Source: a virus. From it: a stretch of DNA of 22,580 bases. The stretch lies in IMG/VR virus record IMGVR_UViG_3300033153_008715, positions 1 through 22,580 of that record. One strand, given 5' to 3'. The notes under the pieces are model-generated. The model was not told where the DNA came from and did no database searches. It was given only the letters and a program-made list of their open reading frames with translations. Positions 2,368 to 21,879 of the stretch are shown here, piece by piece. The translations under genes and the position numbers were made by a program. Each line of letters opens with the position of its first letter. The stretch's first letter is position 1.

Positions 2368-4928
2368 TTATGCTATTCCTAATATTTGTTTCATTTTTGT
2401 TTTTTCAAAGTTCGCTTCAAGAGCTGAGAGCATCTCTGGAATCATCCTCTTACGGGTATAATCACGATCTGTGATAATAGTCCCATTTAGATTGACATAA
2501 TTATTAACCGTAACATTAGACGAGGAAGGCGACCGCCCCCCTGATAAAGGTTGCACGCTCACCCATTCCGGGCCAGCCTCGCCAATTAGCGGCCTTATAG
2601 GTTGTGTAACTATTCCCTCAAAGCCGGTAGCCCAGCCCTCACTTTTCCCTTTTAATGTTTCAAAGGTTCTCTTCGTCCATTCCCGGATTAATGCCGTATT
2701 CCCTCTAATTTGTTTAAGAAAATTATTTGTTGCAGTAAAATCAATATCTACAGCCATGCCCCCTAGCCCGCCTTTTAAGCTATCCTTGATTTGTGCTAAT
2801 AATGTCGTTTGTTTCCAGCCAATTTTTTTCAACGCCTCCTGATTCCATTTCATATTATCAACATTTTGAAGGATATTCCGAGCTTCAGCCCAGATATTAT
2901 GAAGCTCTCGATTCGTTGCGTCCATATCAGTTTTGCCACCAATTAAACCGCTTACAAGGCCTGATACTGCACCGCTTACTACGCTACCTAAAAGATTAAC
3001 TCCACTTACAGCCGCTTCAGCACCCTTTGTTATCCCTCCGATTGCACTCCCAATATTACCAACAATAGCTGTACCGACTTCTTTAGCAGCAGATGTCATA
3101 AGGCTGAATACATTTTCAGCGATAAATTTGGCTACCATCTGACCAACCATATCGGTAAATTGAGTCAAGACAGCATCCCAAATTCCCTTCAGCCCATCTT
3201 TAAGAGAAGTCGCCCCCCTTAAAACTTCTCCTATAGTTGATGACCATTTAGTTTGCAAGCCGTCTGCCATTGTGTCCCAGAAGGATGTAACATTTCCCGT
3301 TTCTGTTTCAACTGCAGTTGTTATGTCTGGGATCCTATCTGTCATTTCTCCAACTGCTGAATCCAACGCTCCGCTCATATCTCTGAAGGCAGGGAGAGCG
3401 GTTGTTGAAACTGAGGTTGATAAATCTTTAATCTCATCCTTAGCTGTCTTGACCGCTTCGATATAATCATCCAGATCAATTTTACCATCTGCATATGCTT
3501 GGCTCAAATCATCGACATATCCCTCTAATTCTTCGACTCTGTCGGCTTTTTCTTCAACCGTTTTCAATCCCATATCCTTAATATAATCAACCCAGGTTTT
3601 AGTTTTTTCCATCACTTCAGGAATTGTAACTGTAAGCGGTTTAAATCCTTCTTCATCTAATTTTTTAAGCGATTTTTGTTGTTTTTCCCATTCTTTGCTG
3701 CCTATTTTTGCTTGCTCAGCCATTGCCTTTTGAAGCTTAACGCCTTCTTTTCCTTTCAAAATTGCTGAACCTAAGGCCGTATAATTTCCCTTATATTTTT
3801 TCGTTAATTCTGCAAATTCTAATCTTGTTAATCCTGCGGCATCTGCAATTTTTCTTAGTTTCTGTCCAAAATTATGCTGTGCGGTTTCTGCCTCTTTGGT
3901 TGCCTTGGCTAAATATTCTTTTGCTTTGGCAAGTTTTTTTACAATATTATACGCTGCAATTGCTGCAGCCGTAACCGCTCCAAGCGGGCCTAAAATTGCA
4001 CTGATTCCAGTTGCTATGGCTGGCAGAGCAACAACAATCCCAGGAAGCATCATCACAAGCGGGCCTAAAACAGTCATTAAAGCACCTATTCCCAAAACCG
4101 CCTTTGCAATTATTTCTGTTAATTTAGGATGTTCTTTTATCCAATCACTTACCTTTGCTATCGCGTTGCTTAATCCTTCGATAAGTTTTGATAGGGCAGG
4201 CGCAAGGTTTTGGGAAATTGATATCCCAAGTCCTGATATAGCTGTTTTAAGCGTTGTCTGTGCGTCAACAAGTCTAGCCGCACCCTCTGCGGCTTCTGTA
4301 TCAAATGAATATCCCAATTCTTTAGCTTTTTCTCGTAAAGCGGTCATGCCATCAACGCCTTCTGCAAATAAAGGTAAAAGTTCTGTCCCAGCCCGTCCAA
4401 ATATTTCCTGAGCCGTTGCAGCCCTTAAAGTTGGGCTTTCAAGTGATGCGATTCCTTCGGCTATTTTCAAAAATTGATCTTCGGGTGATAATGTCATCAA
4501 CTCTTCAACAGATAATCCAATCCGGTCAAATGATCTCACATAGGTTTCAAGCCCAATGCTGGCATCTGTTAAAGATTTAGACATCTTTTTAATGCCCTTC
4601 TCTAAAGAAGTAATACTTCCCCCGCTTATTTCGGCTGCATATTTAAGCTCTGATAATGTACTTGTTGCAAATCCTGTCCGGAGTGCCATTTTGTGAACTT
4701 CATCCCCAGCTTGAGCATACTTTTTAATCATCAATCCCATAGATGCAACTATAGCACCACCGGCCATTGTCATGCCTCTTCCCATAGATTTAAATTTAGC
4801 AGAATTTGCCTGTATTTTCCCCCCTAAAGTCTTTAAATCTCCCTTAACAGACTTAACAGACGCGTCCCATTTAGATTTCTGAAGTTCTAGCTTTGAAACT
4901 ATACTTCCGGCATTCCATCCACCAGCCA
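2368..4928 (-). CDS. Tail tape measure protein
   Basis: 853 residues from the ATG at 4928. I prefer this start (MAGGWNAG) to an in-frame ATG at 4947 because GAGGAG lies 8 bases upstream of it. The N-terminus (residues 1-60) is lysine-rich and helical and leads into RGMTMAGGAIVASMG, typical of phage tape measures of the TP901 type. Further on there are hydrophobic segments around residues 270-340 (VLGIGALMTVLGPLVMMLPG), a charged coiled-coil middle, and a glycine/alanine-rich segment around 630-680. It sets tail length and occupies the tail lumen. The family rule of roughly 0.15 nm per residue would predict a tail near 130 nm. It follows the chaperone frameshift gene, as is usual. Confidence 0.93.
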
Positions 4929-6048: not shown

Positions 6049-6540
6049 CTAACAAATCGCCTTTTCCATTCTAAATATAAAATTTGTTGAAAATATTGTG
6101 TTTCCTTTTAAATCCGGATTCTGGATAGGCGCCGGAACAGATAAGGCATCGATAACCATAGCAAGCCATTGAGGGCCGCCTGCTACGATTGGTAATTCAA
6201 TCCCAGCAGCCCCGTATGTATTAACATCCCGATGTAAAAGCGTATAAACATCCATTGCATCCTTACGAGCTTGAAAATAACTATCAGCCTGATTATAGAT
6301 TTGTATTGCCTTTTCAATAAAATCCGGTTGCTGATTATCTACGGCTCCCCCTGCATTCTCTAAAACAGCGACATAGCGTTGATTAGTGAGATCAGCCGGC
6401 ACATTATCCCCATTCATATTTTTAATCGGTATATGACCGGCAAATAGATTGACTCCGATTGTTAAAGCTGGCGCCGTCCAGGTTATAAGCGCATCAAGGG
6501 GGATCTGATTCTGTATATATGTTGTAATTTCCTTTATCAT
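6049..6540 (-). CDS. Tail terminator / tail completion protein
   Basis: 163 residues. It begins MIKEITTYIQNQIP, with an amphipathic N-terminal helix, followed by a mixed alpha/beta region (RYVAVLENAGGAVDNQ, then IQIYNQADSYFQARKDAMDVYTLLH) typical of small tail-completion proteins such as lambda gpU or HK97 gp10-neighbour proteins. The family caps the tail tube and joins it to the head. Its start overlaps the stop of the gp10-like gene as ATGA, and the tube gene follows after 38 bases. The gp10-like, terminator, tube, chaperone order is canonical for siphoviruses and supports the call more than any single motif. Confidence 0.72.
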   Translation of the reverse strand: MIKEITTYIQNQIPLDALITWTAPALTIGVNLFAGHIPIKNMNGDNVPADLTNQRYVAVLENAGGAVDNQQPDFIEKAIQIYNQADSYFQARKDAMDVYTLLHRDVNTYGAAGIELPIVAGGPQWLAMVIDALSVPAPIQNPDLKGNTIFSTNFIFRMEKAIC

Positions 6541-7443: not shown

Positions 7444-8055
7444 TCATAGTATATATGGATAAGGTTCGCCCAATAAAATTAAGCCAGTGCCCTGTCCCAG
7501 TATATCCCTTGGATATTTACGTCCTTTTGCTCCTGGCCCGAACGGGCTACAATATCCTGTAAAAGTAATAAAAGTTTTATCTTGAACTTCTTTGTTTTCT
7601 GCAATTAATTCTTTCCAAAACCTTCCACAAGTACTTTTAAGATCCTCAAGCACAATATCATGAATGGCAATAATATTTTTTGTCAACGGCGCATAAAATT
7701 CATAATCTTTTTTAAGAATAGGATATAGATGACCTCCGTCAATATAGAGTAGATTAATATCACGCCCTTTTAGCCTATTTTTTAATTTCTTCAATGTCTT
7801 CGGATTATTGCTATCACCTACAATATCAGGTTTCCGGTCAGCTCGGATATCAATCCCAATATGTTCATAGCCAAGAAGCTGCTCATAAAACCGCTTTTGC
7901 CGGCCAAACCCAATGCCTATCTCAACGATTATGGGTTTTTTTATCTCTCTATTTCTGAAATATGTATCTATGAATTCTAAATAATATCGCCATTCTCCTA
8001 TACTTTGAGAAAGCTTTGTGAAATCCTGGATTTTATCTAATAATAAATTTTTCAT
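7444..8055 (-). CDS. SAM-dependent class I methyltransferase
   Basis: 203 residues. Motif I is IVEIGIGFGRQ (residues 43-53), followed by the acidic loop YEHIGIDIRAD (63-73), and then LLYIDGGHLYPILKKDYEFY (102-121) and IAIHDIV (129-135). The last two are characteristic of the CmcI / methyltransferase-24 group, which use SAM to methylate small molecules or sugars, often as O-methyltransferases. It is the last gene of the glycan cluster, and its start overlaps the radical SAM gene as ATGA. By context it probably methylates a sugar of the cluster's product (inference). The enzyme class is safe and the substrate unknown. Confidence 0.82.
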   Translation of the reverse strand: MKNLLLDKIQDFTKLSQSIGEWRYYLEFIDTYFRNREIKKPIIVEIGIGFGRQKRFYEQLLGYEHIGIDIRADRKPDIVGDSNNPKTLKKLKNRLKGRDINLLYIDGGHLYPILKKDYEFYAPLTKNIIAIHDIVLEDLKSTCGRFWKELIAENKEVQDKTFITFTGYCSPFGPGAKGRKYPRDILGQGTGLILLGEPYPYIL

Positions 8056-9266
8056 TTATTCATCCCTTTTAAAAATACGCCATCAGATTCCTCTATGGTT
8101 GGCTGCCGCTTATGTGTAACTTCAAATCTTTTCCAGGCTTCTGTACCGCTTAAAAGCCCCATCCTGGAATATTGTTGACTATTACATTTAAGCTCTGCCA
8201 TCACCCTTTTTGTCATTTGCATCTCTTCTGCTGTTTCTGTTGGAAATCCATACATAAATGTTCCATGAACATGAATTCCTATTTTCTTAATTACTTTAAT
8301 CATATTGACCGCTTTTTTCAAATCCAATTTTTTATGGATAATATCATCTAAAATTCTTTGGCTGCCGCTTTCAATTCCTATTTTTAGTTCCTTGCAACCG
8401 CATTGATACATAATAGCATATGTTTCTAAATTAAGAGTATCAGCACGGCACATTGCCCCCCAGGGCAACCCGAATTGTTTCAACATTTTAGATATTTCTC
8501 TGATTCTTTCATTGCCTATATTAAACGTATCGTCATCAAAATAAATATATCGAATCCGAGGTAATATTCTTAAAATATCCTTAATTTCTCTTTCGATCCT
8601 TTCAGGGCTATGAGGTCTATATAGATTATTTTTATGAAAACATTCGGCATAACAAAATGAACATTTATAAGGACATCCCCTACTGCCCCAAACATTTACA
8701 GCCAATGGATGCCTTGGAGTGGTATAAAGATAAGTAGTTTCATCTCTTGTTGGGAATGGGGCGTCGTCTATATTTTCCCATTCATCAAAATCATATACAC
8801 CGCCAGCCCCTCCAATTAAACAGGCATAAAGATTTTTTTCATATTCTCCCTTAAGAACCGCATAAACCTCTTTTAACTTTATCAATTCATCAGCAAATGC
8901 AGTGGCATGCATACCTACTAAAATTACTTTGCTATTCTTTGAGATTTCTTTTGTTATATAGTAATCATTTTTCCATGAAGCCGATGCTGTTTCCAATACT
9001 ACATAATCAAATTTTGCAGCAAAATTAAAAAAATCTTTATACTCGTCAAGATGTAGAATCGAATCTCTGAGTACTGATTTTATTCCTTTTTCCTTCAAAT
9101 AAGCATCTGCATAAGCCATATTAAACGGAAAGGGGAAGTATCCCTTATGTATCCCTGGGCTTGTATATGGCCAACGCCCTCCGGCTCTTAATCCCATCCT
9201 CGTTGCATTCTCTTTTAATGTTCCCGTAGGAACGAACCAGGGGGGATTAGAAATCAGAACTTTCAT
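8052..9266 (-). CDS. Cobalamin-type radical SAM enzyme
   Basis: 404 residues from the ATG at 9266, chosen because GGAG lies about 7 bases upstream; an in-frame ATG at 9302 has no comparable site. The N-terminal 165 residues resemble a B12-binding Rossmann domain (MKVLISNPPW, VVLETASASW, VILVGMHATAF, and KGEYE, which corresponds to the usual GE-x-E). The radical SAM core follows with CPYKCSFCYAEC (C198, C202, C205), the CxxxCxxC site for the [4Fe-4S] cluster. Family members catalyse radical methylations, rearrangements or ring formation. Here, among glycosyltransferases and next to a methyltransferase, tailoring of a sugar is likely but unproven. It overlaps the preceding glycosyltransferase by 20 bases. 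Confidence 0.87.
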   Translation of the reverse strand: MKVLISNPPWFVPTGTLKENATRMGLRAGGRWPYTSPGIHKGYFPFPFNMAYADAYLKEKGIKSVLRDSILHLDEYKDFFNFAAKFDYVVLETASASWKNDYYITKEISKNSKVILVGMHATAFADELIKLKEVYAVLKGEYEKNLYACLIGGAGGVYDFDEWENIDDAPFPTRDETTYLYTTPRHPLAVNVWGSRGCPYKCSFCYAECFHKNNLYRPHSPERIEREIKDILRILPRIRYIYFDDDTFNIGNERIREISKMLKQFGLPWGAMCRADTLNLETYAIMYQCGCKELKIGIESGSQRILDDIIHKKLDLKKAVNMIKVIKKIGIHVHGTFMYGFPTETAEEMQMTKRVMAELKCNSQQYSRMGLLSGTEAWKRFEVTHKRQPTIEESDGVFLKGMNK

Positions 9267-9999
9267 TAAATTCTCCGATAGTTTCATGCCATTTTTTGGC
9301 ATAATAAATCTTATTTACAGTCCATAGTCGTTTCATATCCGGTATTGGCGGGTGTTTCATATGGATAGCAATAATATTATCTTTAGTGATAACTTTCACT
9401 TTATTAACAATTAAAGTTCTTAAAAAATCGACATCTTCTCTTCCAAATCCACTAGCATAGCCCTCATCAAAACCGCCAACCCTATTATATGTTTCTTTCG
9501 ATAGCACAGAGCAGAAATGAAGCCGGCGGTTTCTATATTTTGAATGTTGATACCAGTTAATCATCTGATATCTAAAGTCTTCAAATTTATTGATATTCCC
9601 ATTATAGTCTGCATTTAATACGGCTGCAATAACATACAAATTAGGATTTTTGCTTAAAACTAAATCAAATCCTCCGAGTATATTTGTCAAATGTAAGCAC
9701 TCTGGATTAGTTAGAATAAGGAATTTCCCGCTTGCTTCTTTAGCCCCAACATTAAACATCCTACAGGGAGCATATGAGGGTTTAAACGTGGTTTCGAGAT
9801 GTTTAATTTTAAGAGATGGGGAGAAATTTTTGATCGTATTTACTAAAAACTCATGCTCATTTTCTTCCTCTATATTCTTGCGATCTTCCATTACTATAAT
9901 TTCATAATCTTCTCTTCCAGCATAGTGATAGAGAAACGATACAAATGTATTATGTATCATCGGCTTTCTATAATAAGGCATTAAAATTGAATATTTCAT
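9247..9999 (-). CDS. Family 2-like glycosyltransferase
   Basis: 250 residues. The N-terminus MKYSILMPYYRKPMIHNTFVSFL is the GT-A entry strand, and EIIVMEDRK gives the nucleotide-binding acidic residues. FNVGAKEASGKFLILTNPECL (around residues 82-102) replaces the canonical D-x-D with N-x-E. The segment GGFDEGYASGFGREDVDFL matches the galactosyltransferase/chondroitin-polymerase C-terminal signature (W/F-G-x-ED-x-D). It should transfer a sugar from a nucleotide-sugar donor, in the cytoplasm as no membrane segment is seen. It overlaps its neighbours (ATGA with the epimerase gene upstream; 20 bases with the radical SAM gene). Confidence 0.82.
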   Translation of the reverse strand: MKYSILMPYYRKPMIHNTFVSFLYHYAGREDYEIIVMEDRKNIEEENEHEFLVNTIKNFSPSLKIKHLETTFKPSYAPCRMFNVGAKEASGKFLILTNPECLHLTNILGGFDLVLSKNPNLYVIAAVLNADYNGNINKFEDFRYQMINWYQHSKYRNRRLHFCSVLSKETYNRVGGFDEGYASGFGREDVDFLRTLIVNKVKVITKDNIIAIHMKHPPIPDMKRLWTVNKIYYAKKWHETIGEFNESSDF

Positions 10000-10907
10000 T
10001 TATATACAGCCCTCATCCAGTCTATCGTCTTGGGTATTCCAATCTCTAAAGATATTATTGGATTATGATTAAATAAGCGTTTAGCTTTTTTAATATCTGG
10101 CTTTTTATTAACGACGTTATGCTTATCTTCGGGCAAATAATCAACTAATTTATCACTTTTCCCTATATAGGCTAAAACAATGCTACTTAATTCTTCTACA
10201 CTACGATATTCTATTCCCCCAATATTAAATACTTCTCCTGATATGAAATTTTCACAAGCTCTAGCAAGCGTAGGAATAAAATCATCAATATACATAAATA
10301 CTCTATGATATCCCTTATAAACCTGATAGGGTATGTCAAATAATGCTCTATAACAGAATAAACAAACAACGCTCCGGTAATTATGATAATATTCACCCGG
10401 ACCGTATGCGTTAAAAAATCTTAGTCGCATACATTGATTATTAAATCGTTTTTCAAAGTTCATGATTTGTATTTCATTCACCCATTTTGTTACCGCATAA
10501 TCATTATGCTGTATGATAGAGGATTGAAGTGGTAAATTTTCCGACAAAATACCATCATACTTATCGCCATAAATCTCAGATGAACTTGCAAATATAAGTT
10601 TAAAACCTTTCTTTTTTTGCCATTCTAAAATATTCCTTGTGCCTATCACGTTAGTCTGCCAAAGGGTATCGTAATATTCCTCGCCATTTATCCTGCCAAA
10701 CTCAGCGGCAAGGTGATAAACATAATCATAATTATTAGCAAATACTCGCTCCAGTTGTCTATAATTTGCTATATCCGCTCTGATATAGTTATCATCTTTA
10801 TGATGAGCCAGATCGCATTGATAAACGCTATGACCACGCTGTATAAGTTCTTTTACAAGTGGGACGCCGAGAGTCCCTTTGCTTCCTGTTACTAATATTT
10901 TTGACAT
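9996..10907 (-). CDS. NAD-dependent sugar epimerase/dehydratase (extended SDR)
   Basis: 303 residues. The N-terminal Rossmann motif is VTGSKGTLG (GxxGxxG, residues 6-14). DIANYRQLE and YHLAAEFGR follow, then the catalytic serine region FASSSEIYG (about 105-113) and YAVTK (YxxxK, about 138-142), and FFNAYGPGE plus a C-terminal substrate domain with EVFNIGG. This is the full catalytic set of nucleotide-sugar epimerases and 4,6-dehydratases (GalE / RmlB / GMD superfamily). The length is normal and nothing is missing. It would make the activated sugar used by the neighbouring transferases. The exact reaction cannot be told from sequence. Confidence 0.88.
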   Translation of the reverse strand: MSKILVTGSKGTLGVPLVKELIQRGHSVYQCDLAHHKDDNYIRADIANYRQLERVFANNYDYVYHLAAEFGRINGEEYYDTLWQTNVIGTRNILEWQKKKGFKLIFASSSEIYGDKYDGILSENLPLQSSIIQHNDYAVTKWVNEIQIMNFEKRFNNQCMRLRFFNAYGPGEYYHNYRSVVCLFCYRALFDIPYQVYKGYHRVFMYIDDFIPTLARACENFISGEVFNIGGIEYRSVEELSSIVLAYIGKSDKLVDYLPEDKHNVVNKKPDIKKAKRLFNHNPIISLEIGIPKTIDWMRAVYK

Positions 10908-11497
10908 TACCAGTACTCCTTTATGTCTATTATTGGATGTGAATTAATATATTCAAATTCTTTTTTTATTGAAATAGGAATATTATGAGGGTAACTTCCA
11001 GCCCTTGGAATTCTCCAGTCTTTCCCATAACGAATTTTAAGGTATTCTTCTGGAGGATTCGGAACTCGAGCTTTTATGTCCATAAAATTAATAAAATAAT
11101 CATCTTTAAAAAATCTCGCTGGCAGTACTGAAACATTCGACATTGGCTTATATGCTAATACTACAATCTTATCTTCTAGGGGATAATAATAACCTAAGCA
11201 AATGTCTATTTTAATTCCTCTTTTTCGAATGACAGATCCTGGACTTAAATTGCCGTAATGCTTTGTATCTCTTATTTTTTTACAGATAAATCCATTAGAA
11301 ATTAATTTTTTAAATACTATTGGAAAATTCCAATCAGAAGCCCATACCCTTAAATCAATATCTTGATCATTAGTAATTATGCTACCTTCTCTCACTGTTC
11401 CCAATGCCGTGCCATCAACTAGCCAGAATTTTATACTTAATTGATCTAAAATTCTTTTAATATCTAAAAATGTTTGCTTTGCATCTTTAATATTCAT
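10907..11497 (-). CDS. LicD-family nucleotidyltransferase-fold protein
   Basis: 196 residues. Residues about 22-53 read FWLVDGTALGTVREGSIITND then DQDIDLRVW, the LicD/fukutin signature with the paired aspartates of the nucleotidyltransferase fold. The C-terminal PPEEYLKIRYGKDWRIP is also typical of LicD. LicD proteins attach phosphocholine or other phospho-groups to bacterial glycans. It begins by overlapping the upstream glycosyltransferase (ATGA) and ends by sharing a base with the epimerase start (TAATG). In context it suggests that the cluster's glycan carries a phospho-substituent. The fold is well supported, the substrate unknown. Confidence 0.83.
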   Translation of the reverse strand: MNIKDAKQTFLDIKRILDQLSIKFWLVDGTALGTVREGSIITNDQDIDLRVWASDWNFPIVFKKLISNGFICKKIRDTKHYGNLSPGSVIRKRGIKIDICLGYYYPLEDKIVVLAYKPMSNVSVLPARFFKDDYFINFMDIKARVPNPPEEYLKIRYGKDWRIPRAGSYPHNIPISIKKEFEYINSHPIIDIKEYW

Positions 11498-12078
11498 ATA
11501 AATTTCCCTTGCCCATGATTTTTTTCTCCCTGTCCTCTTCCTGGCCCTTTTTGGGTACTGGCAACTAGTCGATCAATCCATAAATGTTCAATTGTATTTT
11601 TATAACAGGCCGCAATAAAGCAAAAATCTCCTCCGAATCGTCTATTACCGAAGATAAGAATATTTCTTTTCCATACGTCTAATCGTACAGCAAAACAGAA
11701 GGAAGCTATTGAACCGTAAACCGGAGCTTTGCTCCAGATTTCAGGCCGTGGATAAATACCTCTCCCGTCAACATACCCTTTAAAAAAAATAATTTCAGGA
11801 TTCTTATCTTTAATGAGATTTGAAAAATAATCTACAAAACAATCATCAATTAGCATATCATCATCATCAAGCACCATAACATATTTTGCATCAATCTGCT
11901 TTATTTTAGCAAATGATTTATTTGCCTGAAATATACCATACCCATCAATTGATCTATCATCATGATTTAAGATATGGACATAATCATCATTTATTTGTGC
12001 TTTAACTGATTGAATACATAGGTTAAGCATTCTACTTCTTTTAGGATGCACTCTAGTTATAAATGCAATTGATTTCAT
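11494..12078 (-). CDS. Family 2 glycosyltransferase
   Basis: 194 residues, short for the family. It starts MKSIAFITRVHPKRSRMLNLCIQSVKAQ, a classic GT2 entry. The acidic DDRS loop near residue 40 and KYVMVLDDDDMLID (about 65-78) provide the D-x-D metal/nucleotide site. FGGDFCFIAACY (about 148-159) stands where the catalytic ED motif is expected. No transmembrane helix is seen. The tail is basic and glycine-rich (KGPGRGQGEKNHGQGK). It overlaps both neighbours by ATGA. It likely adds one sugar to a growing glycan. Confidence 0.82.
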   Translation of the reverse strand: MKSIAFITRVHPKRSRMLNLCIQSVKAQINDDYVHILNHDDRSIDGYGIFQANKSFAKIKQIDAKYVMVLDDDDMLIDDCFVDYFSNLIKDKNPEIIFFKGYVDGRGIYPRPEIWSKAPVYGSIASFCFAVRLDVWKRNILIFGNRRFGGDFCFIAACYKNTIEHLWIDRLVASTQKGPGRGQGEKNHGQGKFI

Positions 12079-12734
12079 CTAACCTCCCATTGTCCAACTA
12101 TTTGTTTAAGACCAACTGATCTTCTATAATTTCTCGTTCCCTTAGAGTAATGTTTTATATAGCTTTTTAGATTAGGAAATTCTTTCAATATTTTTTTAGA
12201 TAATTTTTTCTTATGAATATCAATCATTGTTAAATAACAAGGCGCTCCATGATGTACATATCTATGGTGTTTTTTATAATTTGCGACATTTATTATTTGA
12301 AAAAATGGATGAAGATATAATAAACAACCTTCTGTTTTATGATAAGACCTTTTTCCGCAATCAATTCCATCATAACCTATTTTTATAATCTTACCAACCC
12401 CGAATGAATTATCATCCATTAAACCCAACATTTCACTTACAGGCGACTTGAGCATTTTAATATCTGTATCAAATAGCATGGCATATTTTGTCTTAACTCT
12501 ATTGATTCCAAAATCCAAACCTCGACCATGCCCGATATTATATCCCATCATTACTATTTCTGTATTTTTCGACATTATACTATATAGATATAAAGTGCAT
12601 GGGTTATTTAAATCAGAACCATTGATAATAAGAATAGGCATATCTGGATGAAATTTGCGAATAGAATTATAAGCAATTTCCATAAATCCCTTTGTATTAT
12701 AACAGACCGTAATGCCTGTTATGTCTTGAACCAT
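12075..12734 (-). CDS. GT-A fold glycosyltransferase
   Basis: 219 residues. The opening ITGITVCYNTKGFMEIAYNSIRKFHP is a GT-A entry, and KTKYAMLFDTDIKML (about 81-95) carries a DTD motif. NIGHGRGLDFGINRV is the substrate loop often seen in GT2 enzymes. YVHHGAPCYLTMIDIHKKKLS in the C-terminal half is a phrase I associate with phage glycosyltransferases, although I cannot give a named family. Its start lies 16 bases inside the upstream gene, so the two are probably coupled. Cytoplasmic; sugar and acceptor unknown. Confidence 0.8.
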   Translation of the reverse strand: MVQDITGITVCYNTKGFMEIAYNSIRKFHPDMPILIINGSDLNNPCTLYLYSIMSKNTEIVMMGYNIGHGRGLDFGINRVKTKYAMLFDTDIKMLKSPVSEMLGLMDDNSFGVGKIIKIGYDGIDCGKRSYHKTEGCLLYLHPFFQIINVANYKKHHRYVHHGAPCYLTMIDIHKKKLSKKILKEFPNLKSYIKHYSKGTRNYRRSVGLKQIVGQWEVR

Positions 12735-13480
12735 GATTGATAGTTATCCTCTGTTAAATTTCCATTGACTATTGCCATATAAATATTATAATCTTCCTCG
12801 TTTGGTATCCATTTTTTCAAGACCGCTCTTGATTCATCCCTAGTTCTATTTCGATAAATACGATGATTTGTATCGTGTCCGCCACCTATACCATGCCGGC
12901 CTGGCATGCCTTTCATACCAACGTGCAATGGTTTTTTATCATCAAAAAATAAATGTGCTCTTCTTCGATCAACTGCTCTCCAGATTCTCATATCAAGATA
13001 TAGATTTCCGGTTAAAAAGTTCCTGAATTCTGATAAAAAAGTTCTACTGAATGCCATCTCCGCAAGTGAAGATTGATGTGTATTTGCAAGGTGAGCAAAA
13101 TAACCAGATGGTAGATGATAATATTTACTTCGACCAATGCCTACGATTTCATGATGATTAAGTCGTGATGATATTTCCTCTACATAACCAGGAGCATAAT
13201 ATTCATCATCCTCAATAATTAAAATCTTATTTCCTCTTATATAAGGTATCGCAGCCCTAAGATTTTCAATTAAAGTACGCTCTGGATCATCCGGCTGCGG
13301 CTCCCGTCTTATATATTCCATTCCAACTTTAGGCTCAGTGGGAATTTTCCCATCATCAACTACAATCCATTGGTCTATTTTCAAAGTTTGCTTGCTCATC
13401 CAATATTGACATAGAGTAAAAGGTAACGGCCTGTCACCTGTTGGAGTGATAGCGGTTATAATCTCAATTTTATCTTTCAC
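12719..13480 (-). CDS. GT-A fold glycosyltransferase (phage type)
   Basis: 253 residues. The N-terminus IITAITPTGDRPLPFTLCQYWMSKQ, then QWIVVDDG (about 37-44), and NKILIIEDDEYYAPGYVEE (about 84-102) give the nucleotide-binding aspartates and the D-x-D-like EDDE. This arrangement, with the TPTGDRP opening, recurs in glycosyltransferases encoded by phages and prophages. A glycine/histidine-rich loop (GMPGRHGIGGGHDTNH) near residue 195-210 may shape the active site. It overlaps the cupin gene by ATGA and the next transferase by 16 bases. Substrate unknown. Confidence 0.82.
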   Translation of the reverse strand: MKDKIEIITAITPTGDRPLPFTLCQYWMSKQTLKIDQWIVVDDGKIPTEPKVGMEYIRREPQPDDPERTLIENLRAAIPYIRGNKILIIEDDEYYAPGYVEEISSRLNHHEIVGIGRSKYYHLPSGYFAHLANTHQSSLAEMAFSRTFLSEFRNFLTGNLYLDMRIWRAVDRRRAHLFFDDKKPLHVGMKGMPGRHGIGGGHDTNHRIYRNRTRDESRAVLKKWIPNEEDYNIYMAIVNGNLTEDNYQSWFKT

Positions 13481-13821
13481 TTCTCAATCCCTCCAACTGT
13501 TTCCCTTTCAATATCCTCGCCTCTGAATTTAATCTCGTATATTTCAAGGCATACAACCTGAGTTAATGCTTTAAATTGATGATAGATTCCTGGCTTAATT
13601 TCCGTCTGTTCTCCCTGCCATAATACTGTATCATCCCTTATTCCCTCTGCTGTCCAGACGCTCAATTTTAAATTTCCAGATATGATATAGAAGATATTTG
13701 ATTTACAGTGATGTAGATGTTTAGAGCAATATCCATCTTTTTTAATATCAAGAATATGCACGGCAACGTTTTTATTGCAAAATAATAATTCAGTAGTTCC
13801 CCATATCTTACCTTTTTTCAT
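13477..13821 (-). CDS. Small cupin, sugar isomerase-like
   Basis: 114 residues, one cupin domain. Motif 1 reads DGYCSKHLHHCKSNIFYIISG (residues 29-49): the metal-binding histidines H35 and H37 are present, but the usual glutamate is replaced by asparagine. Motif 2 is IKPGIYHQFKAL (about 75-86), with the third histidine. The spacing resembles type II mannose-6-phosphate isomerase cupins and nucleotide-sugar epimerases of the same fold. Beside glycosyltransferases it may interconvert a phospho-sugar or activate one. The missing glutamate means that metal binding and activity need care. It is coupled to both neighbours by ATGA. Confidence 0.75.
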   Translation of the reverse strand: MKKGKIWGTTELLFCNKNVAVHILDIKKDGYCSKHLHHCKSNIFYIISGNLKLSVWTAEGIRDDTVLWQGEQTEIKPGIYHQFKALTQVVCLEIYEIKFRGEDIERETVGGIEK

Positions 13822-14528
13822 TTTAATACTTCCTTATAATCTTTTTTAGGGAAACAATCAAGCCCTGAATCAGGATTTAAATTAATAACCTCAACATTTG
13901 TTTTTCTTTTAATCTCATTTGCTGCATGTTTAAAGTATTGTTTAAACCCCTCAAGCACGCTCTGTTTCATCCATATCCTCTTCCCGCCCTCATAATGACC
14001 GTTATGCCAATGAGTCTCAGATTTGTTGATTTTCATATCAAAGCCCAGGAGATAGATTCGCCTAACTCCCAGACAGACGGCCAGATTTATAGCCCCATAA
14101 CCGGAGTTGTTACCATGCCCTATACCGTCTTTCATAGTTAAAGGAAAGGCTTTAAAGCCCCTTGAGTAGTTAATATATACGGGTATTATAAATATATTTG
14201 CCGGAAGTCTACAAATATAAGTACAAAGCCAGGCTCTATAGGCTTTAGATTTAAGAAATTTATCCTTTGCTTCCTGGCCATAATTTCCTTCTAAAATCCA
14301 TCGGATTGTACGGGTGTCCATCGAGAAAATAATAGACGGATCGAATTTTTCATATACCCTATTTATCCCTATTGTTTTTTTACCCTTGAGTAAAGACCAG
14401 TTAAATCGTTTAAGGCTCGGGCCACCACCTATGATGTAACAGTCCTCATCCTTCCAGCTATTATCAGGGAGTACTTCGATTAAAAAATGATTGCTGAATT
14501 TTTTTGATCGTGAAACATATTCCGCCAT
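13818..14528 (-). CDS. DUF115-like / sialyltransferase-like Rossmann protein
   Basis: 236 residues. Near the N-terminus DCYIIGGGPSLKRFNW (about 29-44) contains the GGGPSL loop shared by DUF115 (motility-accessory, MptE-like) proteins and GT42-type sialyltransferases. KTIGINRVYEKFDPSIIFSMDTR follows, then NNSGYGAINLAVCLGVRRIYLLGFDM (about 140-165) and a histidine cluster THWHNGH. The family binds a nucleotide-sugar or a pyrophosphate compound and is common in glycan loci of phages. It is the first gene of the sugar cluster and starts one base after the adaptor stop, so its expression should follow that of structural genes. Catalytic role uncertain. Confidence 0.7.
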   Translation of the reverse strand: MAEYVSRSKKFSNHFLIEVLPDNSWKDEDCYIIGGGPSLKRFNWSLLKGKKTIGINRVYEKFDPSIIFSMDTRTIRWILEGNYGQEAKDKFLKSKAYRAWLCTYICRLPANIFIIPVYINYSRGFKAFPLTMKDGIGHGNNSGYGAINLAVCLGVRRIYLLGFDMKINKSETHWHNGHYEGGKRIWMKQSVLEGFKQYFKHAANEIKRKTNVEVINLNPDSGLDCFPKKDYKEVLK

Positions 14529-17585: not shown

Positions 17586-18308
17586 TTAGCTCACTATGGG
17601 AATTGATGGGAATTTGTCTTCCTCATCATCTTCATCGCCAGCGTCATTGTCCTGACCATCGATGCTCTTTTTTGTCCCTTTCTTTTTCTCAAGCTTTTCG
17701 ATCCTTTTCAGCAATTCAGCTTTTTCCTTTTCTTCTTTCTCAGCCTTCTCTTTAGCTTCCTTTTCTGCTTTTTCCTTGGCTTCCTTTTCAATTTTATCCA
17801 GCTTATCAAGACGTTTCTGAATCTCTTCTGGAATTTCTATCTCTTCGCCATCTTTCTTTTTGAGTTTCTTAGTCTTTTCACCTATAAGCTTTTCGATTAT
17901 CTCTTGAATCTTTTTGAGCTGTGCCACGGTTGCCTTCGATAGAGAAGCCCCGGCCTTTTCAACGTCCTCAAAATCAAGCTCAGATTCTTTGACGGGATAA
18001 TCATAGGTTGCACTTTTAGCAAGCGATAAGAATGCTTCGTCAAGTGCGGGCGGAAAATTCTCTTGAAAACCTTCTATTTCATCAAGTGCCTTCCTGAGAC
18101 TTTCGACATTATCTTCAGGAAGCCCTTTAATCTTCTCGACAGATTCATCATTAATTTCCTCATCGCCCAATATCTTTTTTAATACTTCTAATAATTTTTC
18201 CATTTTATTACTCCTCTTCAAAATTTGAAATTTAGTTTTTTTGTTTGCTCCAAAATCAACAACGCTCACCTCTTTAATATCTAAATCAAATAAGCGACGT
18301 TTTGCCAT
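17586..18308 (-). CDS. Scaffold-like coiled-coil protein with protease-tail remnant
   Basis: 240 residues; the start at 18308 has TGGAGG 8 bases upstream. Residues 1-33 (RLFDLDIKEVSVVDFGANKK, then FQILK) are the phrase that normally ends XkdF/prohead-protease proteins (E-V-S-x-V-D-x-x-A-N). The rest is highly charged: helical to residue about 130, then a lysine/glutamate coiled coil with the repeat KEKAEKEAKEKAEKE near 165-185, and an acidic tail. This is typical of phage scaffolding proteins, which guide capsid assembly and are then removed. A second start at 18203 with a strong ribosome site would give a 205-residue scaffold without the remnant. The capsid gene follows directly. Confidence 0.75.
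   Translation of the reverse strand: MAKRRLFDLDIKEVSVVDFGANKKTKFQILKRSNKMEKLLEVLKKILGDEEINDESVEKIKGLPEDNVESLRKALDEIEGFQENFPPALDEAFLSLAKSATYDYPVKESELDFEDVEKAGASLSKATVAQLKKIQEIIEKLIGEKTKKLKKKDGEEIEIPEEIQKRLDKLDKIEKEAKEKAEKEAKEKAEKEEKEKAELLKRIEKLEKKKGTKKSIDGQDNDAGDEDDEEDKFPSIPIVS
18201..18217 (-). promoter_or_regulatory. Internal ribosome site and start within the scaffold gene
   Basis: Minus-strand GAGGAG (18217-18212), an 8-base spacer and ATG (18203-18201) in frame with the longer gene. The site is stronger than many true starts nearby. It would give a nested 205-residue scaffold (MEKLLEVLKK), as in lambda C/Nu3, where the scaffold is translated from inside the protease gene. Confidence 0.6.
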
Positions 18309-18352
18309 ATCAAAGCCTCCAAAATATTTTAATTCTTTTGAACCCCCTTAAA

Positions 18353-18404
18353 TAAAAAAAAGGCGTCCAAGACTCATTTGCATAAACAAGCCTTGAACGC
18401 CTTT
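18353..18404 (-). terminator. Intrinsic terminator upstream of the scaffold gene
   Basis: Minus-strand stem: AAAGGCGT (18404-18397) pairs with ACGCCTTT (18366-18359), then one mismatch and four more pairs (CAAG with CTTG). The stem is followed by an unbroken run of eight T (18361-18354). This is the cleanest Rho-independent terminator in the window. It lies between the promoter at 18499 and the scaffold start at 18308, so it either ends a short leader RNA or regulates read-through. Confidence 0.8.
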
Positions 18405-18464
18405 AAAAACGTTCGCAAACCCTGAAGGTTTCGACTTCCAGCTTCAGGCTTTAATCAAATTGTT
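18353..18464 (-). ncRNA. Predicted short leader RNA or attenuator, about 112 nt
   Basis: From the start expected for the promoter at 18499-18471 to the end of the intrinsic terminator there is no open frame, but there are two hairpins. The first is CCTGAAG (18448-18442) with CTTCAGG (18427-18421), and the second is the terminator. GAACG (18414-18410) can also pair with CGTTC (18399-18395) inside the left terminator arm, which would block the terminator. This fits an attenuator for the capsid genes or a stand-alone phage small RNA. I do not recognise a known riboswitch. Confidence 0.45.
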
Positions 18465-18470
18465 ACTTAT

Positions 18471-18499
18471 AATCTAAATGATAATATTGATTTTGTCAA
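18471..18499 (-). promoter_or_regulatory. Sigma-70-like promoter upstream of scaffold/capsid genes
   Basis: Minus-strand TTGACA (18499-18494), 17-base spacer, TAGATT (18476-18471; four of six consensus bases), directed at the leader RNA and scaffold gene. The -35 is perfect. The sequence downstream (ATTAAAGCCT) resembles that after the tail promoter (AATAAAGCCT). Confidence 0.6.
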
Positions 18500-18548
18500 G
18501 AAAAAAGATTAAACCTATTAGAATTTATTAATTTATGATTATAATAAA

Positions 18549-18618
18549 ACCCTTACCTCAGCCTACCACACCAAACCGCAGCCCAACTAACCTCAACCCA
18601 ACAAACACAACCTCGCCA
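18549..18618 (-). repeat. Degenerate G-rich pentamer array (14 units)
   Basis: Fourteen consecutive 5-bp units after the stop of the gene ending at 18621. Read on the minus strand they are G/T-rich (TGGCG, AGGTT, GGTTG, AGGTA and so on), most with a G pair at a fixed place. It is more diverged than the arrays at 19190 and 19286 and has T in place of many C. Together with the flanking sequence it fills the gap between the gene and the promoter at 18499. Confidence 0.65.
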
Positions 18619-18620
18619 TA

Positions 18621-19160
18621 TTATCTTTGTGCTTCAATGCCAATCTCTTTTGGAACTTTAAAATTAAGTTTTTTCTGTACTTTTTTTATCGCTCCAAATA
18701 TCTCCTCTAATTCTTTAAAGCTTTTAAATCTATTTTGCCATGCCAATAGATCATTTAATGCCTGCTGTATTACCATTTCCCGAAGTGAACTATCATTAGC
18801 AACTATTTCTGATGAAATATAACGTCTTTTATCCTCATCTTCTTCATCAAATTTAACGCTTATATAGGCTGGGGTGGTCTTTTCTTCGTCATCATACTCA
18901 ACGATTATTTCGATTGAATTTATTAATCCTCTGGCCTGTTGCCTTCTCCAGCTCTCTCCCGCTTTTTTATTATCCCATTCAAAGCATTCGTGAAGTATAG
19001 ATTTTTTTTCCCTGGCCGCATCTACGACTATCTGAGGAGATAGAGAGAAATATTTATCATTTGTTTTTTTTGCCAGCCGCTCTAATTCTTCAGCATAATC
19101 CTGTACTTTCTTCTTGTTAAACATCGCCCTATCCTTTGCTTTGTAAGTCTTTTTTTTCAT
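18621..19160 (-). CDS. Phage protein of unknown function (early-region type)
   Basis: 179 residues; ATG at 19160 with GGAGG 8 bases upstream. It begins with a very basic segment (MKKKTYKAKDRAMFNKKK), then a helical region. The core phrase QIVVDAAREKKSILHECFEWDNKKAGESWRRQQARGLI (about residues 43-80) is one I have met in phage hypothetical proteins, where V-x-x-A-x-x-x-x-S-x-L-H-x-x-F-E-W-D is conserved. An acidic beta strand region and a helical C-terminus follow. No enzyme motif is seen. Related proteins are usually found among DNA-metabolism or early genes, so its place inside the head operon is odd. It lies between two pentamer arrays, beside a gene of similar character. Confidence 0.7.
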   Translation of the reverse strand: MKKKTYKAKDRAMFNKKKVQDYAEELERLAKKTNDKYFSLSPQIVVDAAREKKSILHECFEWDNKKAGESWRRQQARGLINSIEIIVEYDDEEKTTPAYISVKFDEEDEDKRRYISSEIVANDSSLREMVIQQALNDLLAWQNRFKSFKELEEIFGAIKKVQKKLNFKVPKEIGIEAQR

Positions 19161-19189
19161 TCTAATTTACCTCCAAGCAAATATATTTT

Positions 19190-19249
19190 AGCCTTACCTT
19201 GCCTCGCCGGGCTATGCCGCATCGAGCCTCGCCATGCCTCGCCTCGCCC
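19190..19249 (-). repeat. Phased G-rich pentamer array (12 units)
   Basis: Exactly twelve 5-bp units in unbroken phase, mostly NGGCN on the minus strand (AGGCG, AGGCA, TGGCG, CGGCA). It sits 30 bases upstream of the start codon of the gene at 19160, in its transcribed leader. Two or three units depart from the consensus (for example CGATG). Confidence 0.8.
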
Positions 19250-19285
19250 GATCATTTATATTTTCATTCTTAATCATTTTAATTA

Positions 19286-19345
19286 ATCCTCGCCATACCA
19301 CGCCCTGCCTTGCCTTGCCGCGCCAGGCCTCGCCGCACCTGGCCT
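19286..19345 (-). repeat. Phased G-rich pentamer array (12 units)
   Basis: Twelve 5-bp units with no slip, nearly all NGG(C/T)N on the minus strand (AGGCC, AGGTG, CGGCG, TGGCG). It starts just after the stop of the gene ending at 19353. It is separated from the array at 19190 by a 36-base A+T-rich segment, so the two form a pair filling this intergenic gap. Confidence 0.8.
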
Positions 19346-19352
19346 ATATTAT

Positions 19353-19916
19353 TTATTTCTTATCCTCAACAATCTCAAATCTTCCATGATTCCCATTACA
19401 AGCTGGCCGCCAATCTCCAATACCAACACAATTCCCAGCCGCAGCAAATAGATTGATAATTATCTCGATTGACAAAACTCCATTAGAATCATATTGAATC
19501 GGGAATATCATTTCCCAATTCTTAAATTCTGCCCGGATTCTTTCAATAGCACTTTTCCTATTCACCGTCACAACATCTTTCCTGATAATTGGCTCATCTC
19601 CAAAAATAGGGATATAATCAATAGGAATAAAAAAAGCTCCTCTGACTTTTGTCTTTGGGATGTTCTCAACAAACGTATGAGCTGTATCAATAGCACATCG
19701 CTTTAATCCAGTGGCAGGGAAGGAATATTTACCATCCACTTTAGGATAAAGACAGCTCTCAAAAATCTTATCTTCATCCTTTTCCCTTGTTGTCTTTTTC
19801 TCAATCTTTTCCGGAGTTCTCCGGTTCGTGATTAACGACGTAAGACCTCTAATACGAATATTAGTCGTTACAATCTTTGGTCTCACCAGTTTAATTCTTG
19901 ATGCTTTTTCAGCCAT
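19353..19916 (-). CDS. Phage protein with Cas7/RAMP-like features, function unknown
   Basis: 187 residues; start at 19916 with AGGAGG 7 bases upstream. It opens with beta strands (IVTTNIRIRGLTSLITNRR), has a PATGLKRCAIDTAHT segment near residue 68, and then a strand-rich half with FKNWEMIFPIQYD and LSIEIIINLFAAAGNCVGIGDWRPACNG (about 146-173), ending HGRFEI. The glycine-rich end and strand order recall RRM-type RAMP (Cas7-like) folds. I have seen this C-terminal phrase in phage hypothetical proteins. No CRISPR genes are nearby, so a CRISPR role is not claimed. It is preceded by a promoter, a long inverted repeat and a pentamer array. Confidence 0.7.
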   Translation of the reverse strand: MAEKASRIKLVRPKIVTTNIRIRGLTSLITNRRTPEKIEKKTTREKDEDKIFESCLYPKVDGKYSFPATGLKRCAIDTAHTFVENIPKTKVRGAFFIPIDYIPIFGDEPIIRKDVVTVNRKSAIERIRAEFKNWEMIFPIQYDSNGVLSIEIIINLFAAAGNCVGIGDWRPACNGNHGRFEIVEDKK

Positions 19917-19943
19917 TTTAAATCCTCCTTTTATTTGATTTTA

Positions 19944-19973
19944 AGCCTTGCCTGGCCTCGCCCCGCCGAGCCT
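19944..19973 (-). repeat. Short G-rich pentamer array (6 units)
   Basis: Six in-phase units (AGGCT, CGGCG, GGGCG, AGGCC, AGGCA, AGGCT on the minus strand) about 27 bases upstream of the start codon at 19916. It is the same unit as in the arrays at 19190 and 19286. A further C-rich stretch on the plus strand at 20006-20030 could be a fifth, poorer copy. Confidence 0.7.
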
Positions 19974-20023
19974 CGAATAAATATTTTTAATCATCATGTC
20001 AATATAGCCTCCCCCTGCCCACC

Positions 20024-20095
20024 AGCTCCTGAACAGAGAAATAGGGCTTACAGGGAAGGCATTAATTACAATTGTTATTTTTTTGTTCAGGAGCT
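20024..20095 (-). repeat. Perfect 12-bp inverted repeat, leader hairpin
   Basis: AGCTCCTGAACA (20024-20035) and its exact complement TGTTCAGGAGCT (20084-20095) are separated by 48 bases. With the promoter at 20140-20112, the stem would begin about ten bases into the transcript. No U-tract follows on either strand, so it is not an intrinsic terminator. Possible roles are a 5' stabilising hairpin, a regulator site, or a replication or packaging element. Confidence 0.75.
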
Positions 20096-20100
20096 TCATA

Positions 20101-20120
20101 ATCTATAAATAATTATAGAT
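20101..20120. promoter_or_regulatory. Perfect 8-bp dyad over the -10 region, operator candidate
   Basis: ATCTATAA (20101-20108) and TTATAGAT (20113-20120) form a perfect dyad with a 4-base centre. It covers the -10 box and predicted start of the promoter at 20112-20140, the usual place for a repressor site. An A+T-rich dyad could arise by chance, but its size and placement are suggestive. Confidence 0.5.
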
Positions 20121-20140
20121 TTTATTAATCTAAAAGTCAA
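20112..20140 (-). promoter_or_regulatory. Strong sigma-70-like promoter of the accessory block
   Basis: Minus-strand TTGACT (20140-20135), a 17-base spacer and TATAAT (20117-20112): eleven of twelve consensus bases with ideal spacing, the best promoter in the window. It would transcribe the genes at 19916 and 19160 independently of upstream read-through. Confidence 0.8.
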
Positions 20141-20162
20141 GGATTATTTTCAAATAATTTTC

Positions 20163-20384
20163 TTAATCTTCGATTCTTTCCTTATTTTTATCTGACATAT
20201 TTTGTTGAGCCCAATACTTTATCTCAGTAAAGAATTTCTGCATACAGTCTACACATAGATGGTTTATGTTTTTATTAAAATAAGCCTGATCTCTATTTTC
20301 ATTTGTACCCGTTGTAGTTATTTTAATTTCTCCAGAACCATAAAACATTTCACAACCGCATAAATCACAATCTCGTTTATTCAT
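20163..20384 (-). CDS. Small CxxC zinc-binding-type protein
   Basis: 73 residues; start at 20384 with GGAG 8 bases upstream. The cysteine pairs CDLCGC (residues 6-11) and CVDC (44-47) are spaced as in small zinc-finger/ribbon proteins, with a strand segment (SGEIKITTTG) between and a helical acidic end. It could bind zinc and act as an adaptor or nucleic-acid contact, but no function can be given. It lies between the protease-like gene and the promoter of the accessory block, and is the last gene before that promoter. Confidence 0.65.
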   Translation of the reverse strand: MNKRDCDLCGCEMFYGSGEIKITTTGTNENRDQAYFNKNINHLCVDCMQKFFTEIKYWAQQNMSDKNKERIED

Positions 20385-20418
20385 AATTTATCTCCATAAA
20401 TTATTCTTTAATCGCATT

Positions 20419-21879
20419 TTAAACATCTTTTGAAGCCGCAGATCCACCCATGCTAAATGAATGCAATTCTCCATCTAACATCTTTTTAAATATTTCTTTT
20501 GTCTCTTTTGTTTCACCGAAATAAAAAGAAGCATACCAATCGCCTTTATTGATTAAATGATCTTCACTAGTTCCGCCTTTATGTGTCTTTGAATCCGCTT
20601 GGAAACATTCAACGACTTTTATATTCTGATCTTTCCCCTTGTGCATCAATTTTACCTTGCCGCCATTTAACATCCAGCTTTTCATGCCCTTCCATATCTC
20701 TTCTTTTGAAACGATGTCACCCTGGGAGTCTGTTTTTTCACAAGCCGTTACAATTCCGCCGGCAATATATTCCTTCTCATCAGATTTTAATATTTTCAAT
20801 GTTATCTTGCTTATTTCCCCAGCCCCCGGCCTCTCAGCCCTCCTCATCGTTCCCCCGCATTTAGGACATTTAACGTCTTTGCAGTGGCTATCCGTAGTCA
20901 GCTTATGGCCGCACTCGATACACTCGCAGCTGTATTTCTGCTTCTCCTCTTTCTTCTTTTTCGCCTCTTTTTTTGCCGGCTCAAACTTAATGTATGCAAT
21001 CTTGTTATCAGTTAAGAATTTCTTAGCCTGTGCAACCGTATATTTATCCTTAGGAAACCGTAAAGCCTGCGGTACCCAGGTTGCAGGTGCTTTCCCTTTC
21101 GGGTGTCCCCAGATGATACCAATGGCAGCGGGGATAACTGTTTTGAAATATATCTTACCCCCCTTTGTTCGTCTGAAATTGTCATACCTGCTAGGCAATT
21201 GAAGTCTGGCAGAATGCTCCGAGGGATAAGGTTTAGTTATATCAACCTTACCTCCCTTATCAATGTCCTCACCCTTCTCTTCCTCATCTTCCCTTGGCTG
21301 CCCCCATTGGTCAGTTTTTATTACAGGCTTTTCCTCTTTCCGAGGCTTAGAATTATCTATAGGCTTTAGTATTAAATCATACAAGGGGATGCAATCTTCC
21401 GGTATATCCTCTGCACATTTTGTTACTGTAGAATCCTTCCCCAGCTCTTCCTCTAATACCTGCTTAATCCGCTCCTCAACCTCAACCGTTCTTTTATCTC
21501 CCTTCTCCCTGATATAAATGCTAAATGAACCCTGCTCTTTTGGGCTTTTAAGGAATGATCCATGTATAGAAATATAATCATTTGTAATACCTACTTCAGG
21601 CAGGCTTTTAACATCCACACCGGTCATTTCCTTGCTGAATATAATCTTATCAAGCTCATTGCTTTTATTAACTTTGAGCCGCCGGCACGTTATCTCCCGA
21701 TTAAGCAGTTTATAGCGGTTTAGAAAATCCTTTCTATCCAGGAAGTTAAAATCACTCTTTTTAAATAGATTGGTTTTATAAAACTTCTTGAATATCTGGG
21801 AGAATCGCATTCGCAGGTTGAATAGCTCTTTATCCGGTTCTTTTTTAAGGTTGTCTTTATTTATATTTTCTATGCGCAT
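20419..21879 (-). CDS. XkdF-type prohead protease-like protein with zinc ribbon
   Basis: 486 residues. Residues about 1-90 are a charged helical head; about 215-305 include EHSARLQLPSRYDNFRR and the WVPQALRFPKDKYTVAQAKKFL segment, seen in phage proteins encoded with portal and capsid genes. C320/C323 and C338/C341 form a zinc ribbon. Residues 355-486 fit the XkdF-like putative serine protease domain: EYIAGGIVTACEKTDSQGDIV, a histidine (H413) in VKLMHKG, and SFSMGG near the end, S476 being the likely nucleophile. It should process the prohead. The protein stops right after SFSMGG, while family members usually continue to an E-V-S-x-V-D phrase, here found at the start of the scaffold gene 2.1 kb downstream. 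Confidence 0.75.
   Translation of the reverse strand: MRIENINKDNLKKEPDKELFNLRMRFSQIFKKFYKTNLFKKSDFNFLDRKDFLNRYKLLNREITCRRLKVNKSNELDKIIFSKEMTGVDVKSLPEVGITNDYISIHGSFLKSPKEQGSFSIYIREKGDKRTVEVEERIKQVLEEELGKDSTVTKCAEDIPEDCIPLYDLILKPIDNSKPRKEEKPVIKTDQWGQPREDEEEKGEDIDKGGKVDITKPYPSEHSARLQLPSRYDNFRRTKGGKIYFKTVIPAAIGIIWGHPKGKAPATWVPQALRFPKDKYTVAQAKKFLTDNKIAYIKFEPAKKEAKKKKEEKQKYSCECIECGHKLTTDSHCKDVKCPKCGGTMRRAERPGAGEISKITLKILKSDEKEYIAGGIVTACEKTDSQGDIVSKEEIWKGMKSWMLNGGKVKLMHKGKDQNIKVVECFQADSKTHKGGTSEDHLINKGDWYASFYFGETKETKEIFKKMLDGELHSFSMGGSAASKDV

Follow-up and report, generated by a model that had tools for sequence, protein, structure and literature searches.

VIPR is described in a 2026 preprint (PMC13142463) as an RNA-guided, phage-borne system used against rival phages, and a literature search with its full name returned this preprint only. 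According to the preprint, the system has three parts: the Vipr protein, which is small and resembles the RAMPs of CRISPR systems; an accessory gene called vap; and guide RNAs called vrRNAs. Vipr is a RAMP of about 20 kDa with an RRM core and a glycine-rich loop. A vrRNA is built of 9–16 YNNGG units, the NN pairs of which recognize DNA with a one-base skip. The arrays are intergenic and lie next to vipr, and a constant 3′ tail follows the repeat tract. As the preprint reports, the complex represses competing phages, and Vipr-RNA binding and pairing have been demonstrated for VIPRs other than the one treated here. The accessory genes are numbered vap1–6, a DNA-binding role is given to some of them, VIPRs are divided into seven types, and it is proposed that VIPR predates CRISPR (PMC13142463).

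The VIPR of Escherichia phage SUSP1 is presented there as a working system of type II (PMC13142463). In the first 50 kb of SUSP1, our Vipr profile matches one of 144 ORFs (28474–29076, E 7e-40), and direct reading shows this homologous gene to be flanked on both sides by GGT-type arrays with some imperfect units. TIGR-Tas, as described, appears to resemble VIPR in being found in phages and in having a tandem guide array and a DNA-targeting RNA guide, but it differs in its protein family and its two-spacer guide.

We analyzed the IMG/VR record IMGVR_UViG_3300033153_008715, a virus contig of 22,580 bases (the window, i.e., the whole stretch), and studied the region at about 18,549–19,973. It is very probable that this region is a VIPR locus, because its array grammar is that of the vrRNAs as given in the preprint (PMC13142463) and because the profile of one of its genes finds the SUSP1 Vipr. 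We regard the locus as one more member of the VIPR family. Its arrays and genes are as follows:

Array 1: 18549–18617, minus strand; 13 units with a looser GGT-type consensus, plus a GGGTT end; candidate vrRNA downstream of gene B
Gene B: 18621–19160, minus strand; 179 aa, phrog_15946; likely vipr-accessory protein
Array 2: 19189–19248, minus strand; candidate vrRNA of 12 units that precedes gene B
Array 3: 19285–19344, minus strand; candidate vrRNA that follows vipr, with 11 GGY-NN units and a terminal GGATT
Gene A (Vipr): 19353–19916, minus strand; 187-aa RAMP protein with a glycine-rich C-terminal loop, assigned by profile and model
Array 4: 19943–19972, minus strand; candidate vrRNA that precedes vipr, short at 6 GGY-NN units

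Pentamer arrays and the genes they flank

Read on the minus strand, all four arrays have the form (GGY-NN)n with 13, 12, 12, and 6 units, and this orientation is the sense orientation of both flanked genes. An earlier note on this DNA had described four arrays of G-rich pentamers in strict phase; the arrays are real, and their coordinates and unit numbers hold. As it had claimed, a GG pair stands in a fixed place in the GC-rich arrays 2–4 (10/12, 12/12, and 6/6 units); in array 1, the GG is in phase in 8/14. The longest in-phase GG run, that of array 3, scores 12, compared with a best score of 5 in 200 dinucleotide shuffles of the whole window and of 5 in 1000 shuffles of 18301–20450. The GGY fit of each array was reached by none of 5000 shuffles of that array alone. 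Shuffles never matched the phase of the arrays. With GC contents of 0.55, 0.68, 0.72, and 0.77 for arrays 1–4 against 0.38 for the window, the arrays are indeed unlike their A+T-rich surroundings.

The conserved word is GGY, beyond GG alone, as a pyrimidine follows GG in 42 of the 43 full units. In the A/T-richer array 1, 12/13 units begin with G and 13/13 have a pyrimidine as their third base, and departures from G, G, and Y are few in arrays 2 and 3. Distinct NN pairs number 9 in array 1 (13 units), 7 in array 2 (12 units), and 9 in array 3 (12 units), and the four arrays have at most two consecutive NN units in common. The suggestion that fixed spacing with variable units reflects selection for a scaffold is borne out. 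A short A/T-rich stretch follows each array, with no hairpin by eye.

Gene A: The family profile, made from the window protein and 43 homologues, matches the PDB entry 36pp, “SUSP1 Vipr protein”, at E 3.4e-26, with no other match below 0.28. The gene A protein singly finds the same entry at E 1.6e-4. Its C-terminus is conserved (AGxxxGxGxxRPxxxGxFG). The predicted model (pLDDT 91.6, pTM 0.85) resembles the Csm3/Cas7 backbone RAMPs of type III CRISPR-Cas (Foldseek E 6e-6; Z 12.1, rmsd 3.1 over 154 residues), with a sequence identity of only 8–16% in the aligned rows. A Shine-Dalgarno sequence, GGAGG, precedes 19916 and lies between the array and the start codon. The viral contig collection contained no close relative of the window Vipr protein, and no named-phage DNA matched the cassette region.

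Gene B: The Shine-Dalgarno sequence TTGGAGG precedes 19160, also between the array and the start codon, and the reading frames of both genes are intact with clear ribosome sites. Family and profile searches gave no named family. In a tree of 76 Viprs, all 26 that are labelled with a gene B partner (the labels of Quico and UmaThurman being assigned by hand) fall into one clade with the window (support 0.91). This clade also includes some members without gene B, and the SUSP1 Vipr lies elsewhere in the tree. Gene B likely encodes a vap-type accessory protein. Its predicted model (pLDDT 88.7) had no Foldseek match at E ≤ 0.001. The best Z was 5.6, too low to rely on, and the rows included DNA-binding proteins of the winged-helix and forkhead kinds; the modeled fold is at best weakly winged-helix-like. 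Such a likeness would suit, but not prove, the DNA-binding role which the preprint gives to some vaps (PMC13142463).

The window and the SUSP1 VIPR share a homologous small RAMP and tandem GGY/NN arrays up- and downstream of it in intergenic DNA, and both are phage-borne. They differ in the Vipr clade and in the arrays, which are mostly GGT in SUSP1 and mostly GGC in the window. Gene B has no detectable sequence relation to the SUSP1 neighbor gene, and no hairpin tail was recognized in the window. The locus adds a layout with arrays on either side of both genes, in a non-SUSP1 branch and with a different second gene. Mycobacterium phage Quico, Gordonia phage UmaThurman, and the IMG/VR contig L085 belong to the same Vipr clade with a gene B partner, and in them, as in the window, GGC-NN arrays adjoin vipr. 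The order array-vipr-array-gene B-array of L085 is that of the window. Quico and UmaThurman, unlike the window, have runs of adjoining or overlapping arrays, and the arrays of L085 end in a hairpin, whereas those of the window show none by eye. In L021, L049, L056, L074, and Quico (L170, 1440–1680), successive arrays are split by a four-base GGCA unit that shifts the phase; these are perhaps the staggered arrays of the preprint (PMC13142463).

Association across viral loci and readings of the arrays

Searching phages for the degenerate pentamer, as the earlier note had proposed, proved to be the right test. IMG/VR was scanned for a degenerate pattern, GGC recurring every five bases, with no protein data used, and at least 120 viral stretches with such arrays were found. 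Control loci (104) were fetched with other patterns, and profiles started from genes A and B were run on all ORFs. Among the matches listed, 78 of 120 array-selected loci contain a gene A homologue and 29 of 120 a gene B homologue, compared with 0 of 104 controls in both cases, a comparison which leans towards the array loci because the profiles were trained on them. With single sequences as queries, gene A alone matched more than 40 ORFs and gene B alone more than 25 in array loci. Every array is on the strand of gene A in 78/78 gene A loci, and the distance between gene A and an array is at most 100 bases in 61 of them and at most 733 bases in all. The 42 listed loci without gene A comprise 11 simple repeats, 19 with an array within 900 bases of the end of the retrieved DNA, and 12 that are unexplained. 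The claim that the arrays belong to the two genes is right, and an array-gene association is shown across viral loci. It follows from the 78 listed loci that guide arrays are recognizable from sequence alone, one degenerate DNA pattern leading to Vipr genes.

Because the arrays are located around VIPR genes, we read them, by analogy, as most likely guide RNAs. The cassette transcript or transcripts would be expressed and processed so that each GGY-NN array yields a vrRNA. By the mechanism given in the preprint (PMC13142463), Vipr subunits would line the array, with the GGY of every unit held and its NN pair exposed. These NN pairs, with one base skipped between them, would then pair with the duplex DNA of a competitor, whether phage, satellite, or prophage (PMC13142463). 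This pairing would block transcription of the target; we infer both such targets and such a use for the window phage. The gene B protein (18621–19160) is probably a vap and may help DNA binding.

Target patterns were composed of the NN pairs of arrays 1–3 with one-base skips, array 1 being represented by one half. Exact 8-unit patterns occur in 21, 19, 10, 42, and 12 stretches of the viral contig collection, and one 9-unit pattern of array 3 occurs in 6 stretches of the genome contig collection. The best all-unit scores are 20/22 for array 3 (L133, L142, L143, and L146; also L244, L246, and L247 from Rhodococcus), 21/24 for array 2 (L190), and 20/26 for array 1 (L225). We judge these scores to be at chance level, because they are about those expected for such collections by our own estimate with assumed collection sizes, and no target above chance was found in the viral and genome contig collections searched. 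Seed matches are in frame in 15/21, 7/20, 2/10, 23/42, and 7/12 cases, which are uncontrolled counts and are not taken as evidence. Ten proteins at candidate targets were scanned, and those with a family differ in kind. A test of the skip rule with 226 guides on 2.1 Mb gave no signal, and permuted guides did no worse. No target was found for one Quico guide in 401 genomes from the family to which the L246 genome (G001) belongs or for array 3 in the whole records of L236, L237, L239, and L240 with up to 3 mismatches.

Several points speak against the VIPR reading: with 6 units, array 4 falls short of the published 9–16, array 1 has the full GG in only 8/14, no hairpin tail common to the four arrays was seen by eye, and no target stands above chance. 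The last we do not count against VIPR, because natural targets are specific competitors which may be unsampled. The short array 4, the loose array 1, and the missing target would also suit a decayed locus, in which genes and arrays are of VIPR descent and guide nothing in the window phage now. We consider such decay improbable, as the two ORFs are uninterrupted and have clear ribosome sites and as arrays 2 and 3 seldom depart from G, G, and Y; SUSP1, a working system according to the preprint (PMC13142463), has imperfect units too.

For the arrays, the earlier note had considered roles that involve no guiding: RNA G-quadruplexes, serial weak ribosome-binding sites, a protein-binding lattice in DNA, or a footprint of slippage. 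GG at 5-base spacing can in principle give two-layer quadruplexes, and the arrays of relatives do duplicate and recombine. However, the pyrimidine kept after GG in all but one full unit is needless for a quadruplex and for a ribosome site, each gene has its own Shine-Dalgarno sequence, and the arrays go with one protein family. Moreover, gene A is related to the CRISPR RAMPs, and its named homologue is a binder of RNA of this type. Neither a DNA lattice nor slippage is supported as the main reading, but slippage or recombination seems active on the arrays of relatives, as a source of guide change. The quadruplex, ribosome-binding, and slippage readings are not needed to explain the arrays, and we regard any non-guiding role as highly improbable. 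That the locus is instead a piece of a type III CRISPR-Cas system whose repeats are unusual is hardly credible: gene A folds like Csm3/Cas7, but a tandem-repeat scan of the 22.6-kb record gave no repeat-spacer array, no cas family matched the cassette genes, no other cas gene was seen in the window, and Vipr is the only strong PDB sequence match of gene A.

Cassette slot and guide variation

The putative VIPR cassette occupies a delimited stretch of the record, on the minus strand of which a Mu-F-like head protein, an XkdF-type protease, and a virion structural protein are also encoded. The further features are as follows:

VIPR cassette: about 18501–20415, minus strand; missing in near relatives, the alignment with L236/L237 breaking at about 20416 and resuming at about 18500
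73-aa ORF with CxxC motifs: 20163–20384, minus strand; inside the cassette
Promoter-like site TTGACT-17-TATAAT: 20112–20140, minus strand; upstream of array 4, 11/12 consensus matches
Terminator-like hairpin with a T run: 18359–18404, minus strand; downstream of the cassette, in DNA common to relatives

The sense order is protease gene, 73-aa ORF, promoter-like site, array 4, gene A, array 3, array 2, gene B, array 1, and terminator-like hairpin. The promoter-like site is only weakly suggestive, because 12 such sites were found in the region compared with 8.5 expected. The 73-aa ORF is perhaps a passenger, and no homologue of it was found in the 120 array-selected loci listed. The leader between the promoter-like site and array 4 (20106–19975) contains the inverted repeat GCTCCTGAACA/TGTTCAGGAGC. 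We claim no structure for this leader, because the folding of its strand did not surpass that of shuffled sequences (z −0.48). An Rfam search gave nothing of note.

Six contigs have the same virion structural protein at 75–99% identity, and gene A, gene B, and arrays are absent from the DNA compared from them. The DNA of L236 and L237 is 95.8–97.4% identical to the window on one flank of the cassette and 86–91% identical on the other. In place of the cassette, they have a 467-aa ORF with similarity to HNH endonucleases (L236, 850–2253; L237, 3661–5064; phrog_1271, E 1.5e-23). The slot of L240 (4020–5045) holds an ORF with helix-turn-helix and HNH similarity, that of L241 holds an ORF at the same coordinates, and that of L239 has only about 190 bases between the flanking ORFs. 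L238 is a partial case, as the contig begins inside the slot. Its positions 1–820 contain no ORF of 60 aa in the slot, have no Rfam match, and show degenerate repeats around TTTGTCATGGTTTCACGG by eye, which could be another non-coding array. The related phages with and without the cassette thus offer a natural pair for testing its role.

Loci with near-identical Viprs (99.5–100%) can differ in all of their NN pairs while the GGC frame stays the same: L111/L121 (99.5% Vipr identity) and L088/L097 (100%) have no identical array in common. In L032/L082 and L076/L114, the arrays are copies. At least six consecutive NN units are in common in 13 of 1338 within-locus array pairs, compared with 0 of 1338 pairs with permuted order and 0 of 18,501 sampled between-locus pairs, from which nine close pairs were left out. 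By eye, one array of L097 (region 2846–3039) looks like the beginning of one L088 array fused to the end of the following one (region 6074–6376) at a shared GGCGAGGCGTGGCA.

Partial duplication and recombination are, we infer, among the ways in which guides arise. A broader proposal, which we put forward tentatively and which may well prove wrong, is that VIPR is exchangeable cargo, and that it and HNH (homing-type) endonucleases use one fixed slot of the head-gene operon. Guides would change with no adaptation machine, through duplication, deletion, and recombination of the GGC-NN repeats, and chimeric guides would then be selected. If this is true, the repeating scaffold is both the frame of the guide and its engine of change. 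The partial duplicates and chimeric guides of relatives bear on how guides arise without Cas1.

Elsewhere in the window, several ORFs at 7444–14528 are, by translation, presumably glycosyltransferase-like, epimerase-like, and radical-SAM-like and lie inside the phage structural region. At 17715–17790, a 24-base repeat with 3.2 copies lies in the coding sequence of a 240-aa ORF, where it gives a Lys/Glu-rich stretch.
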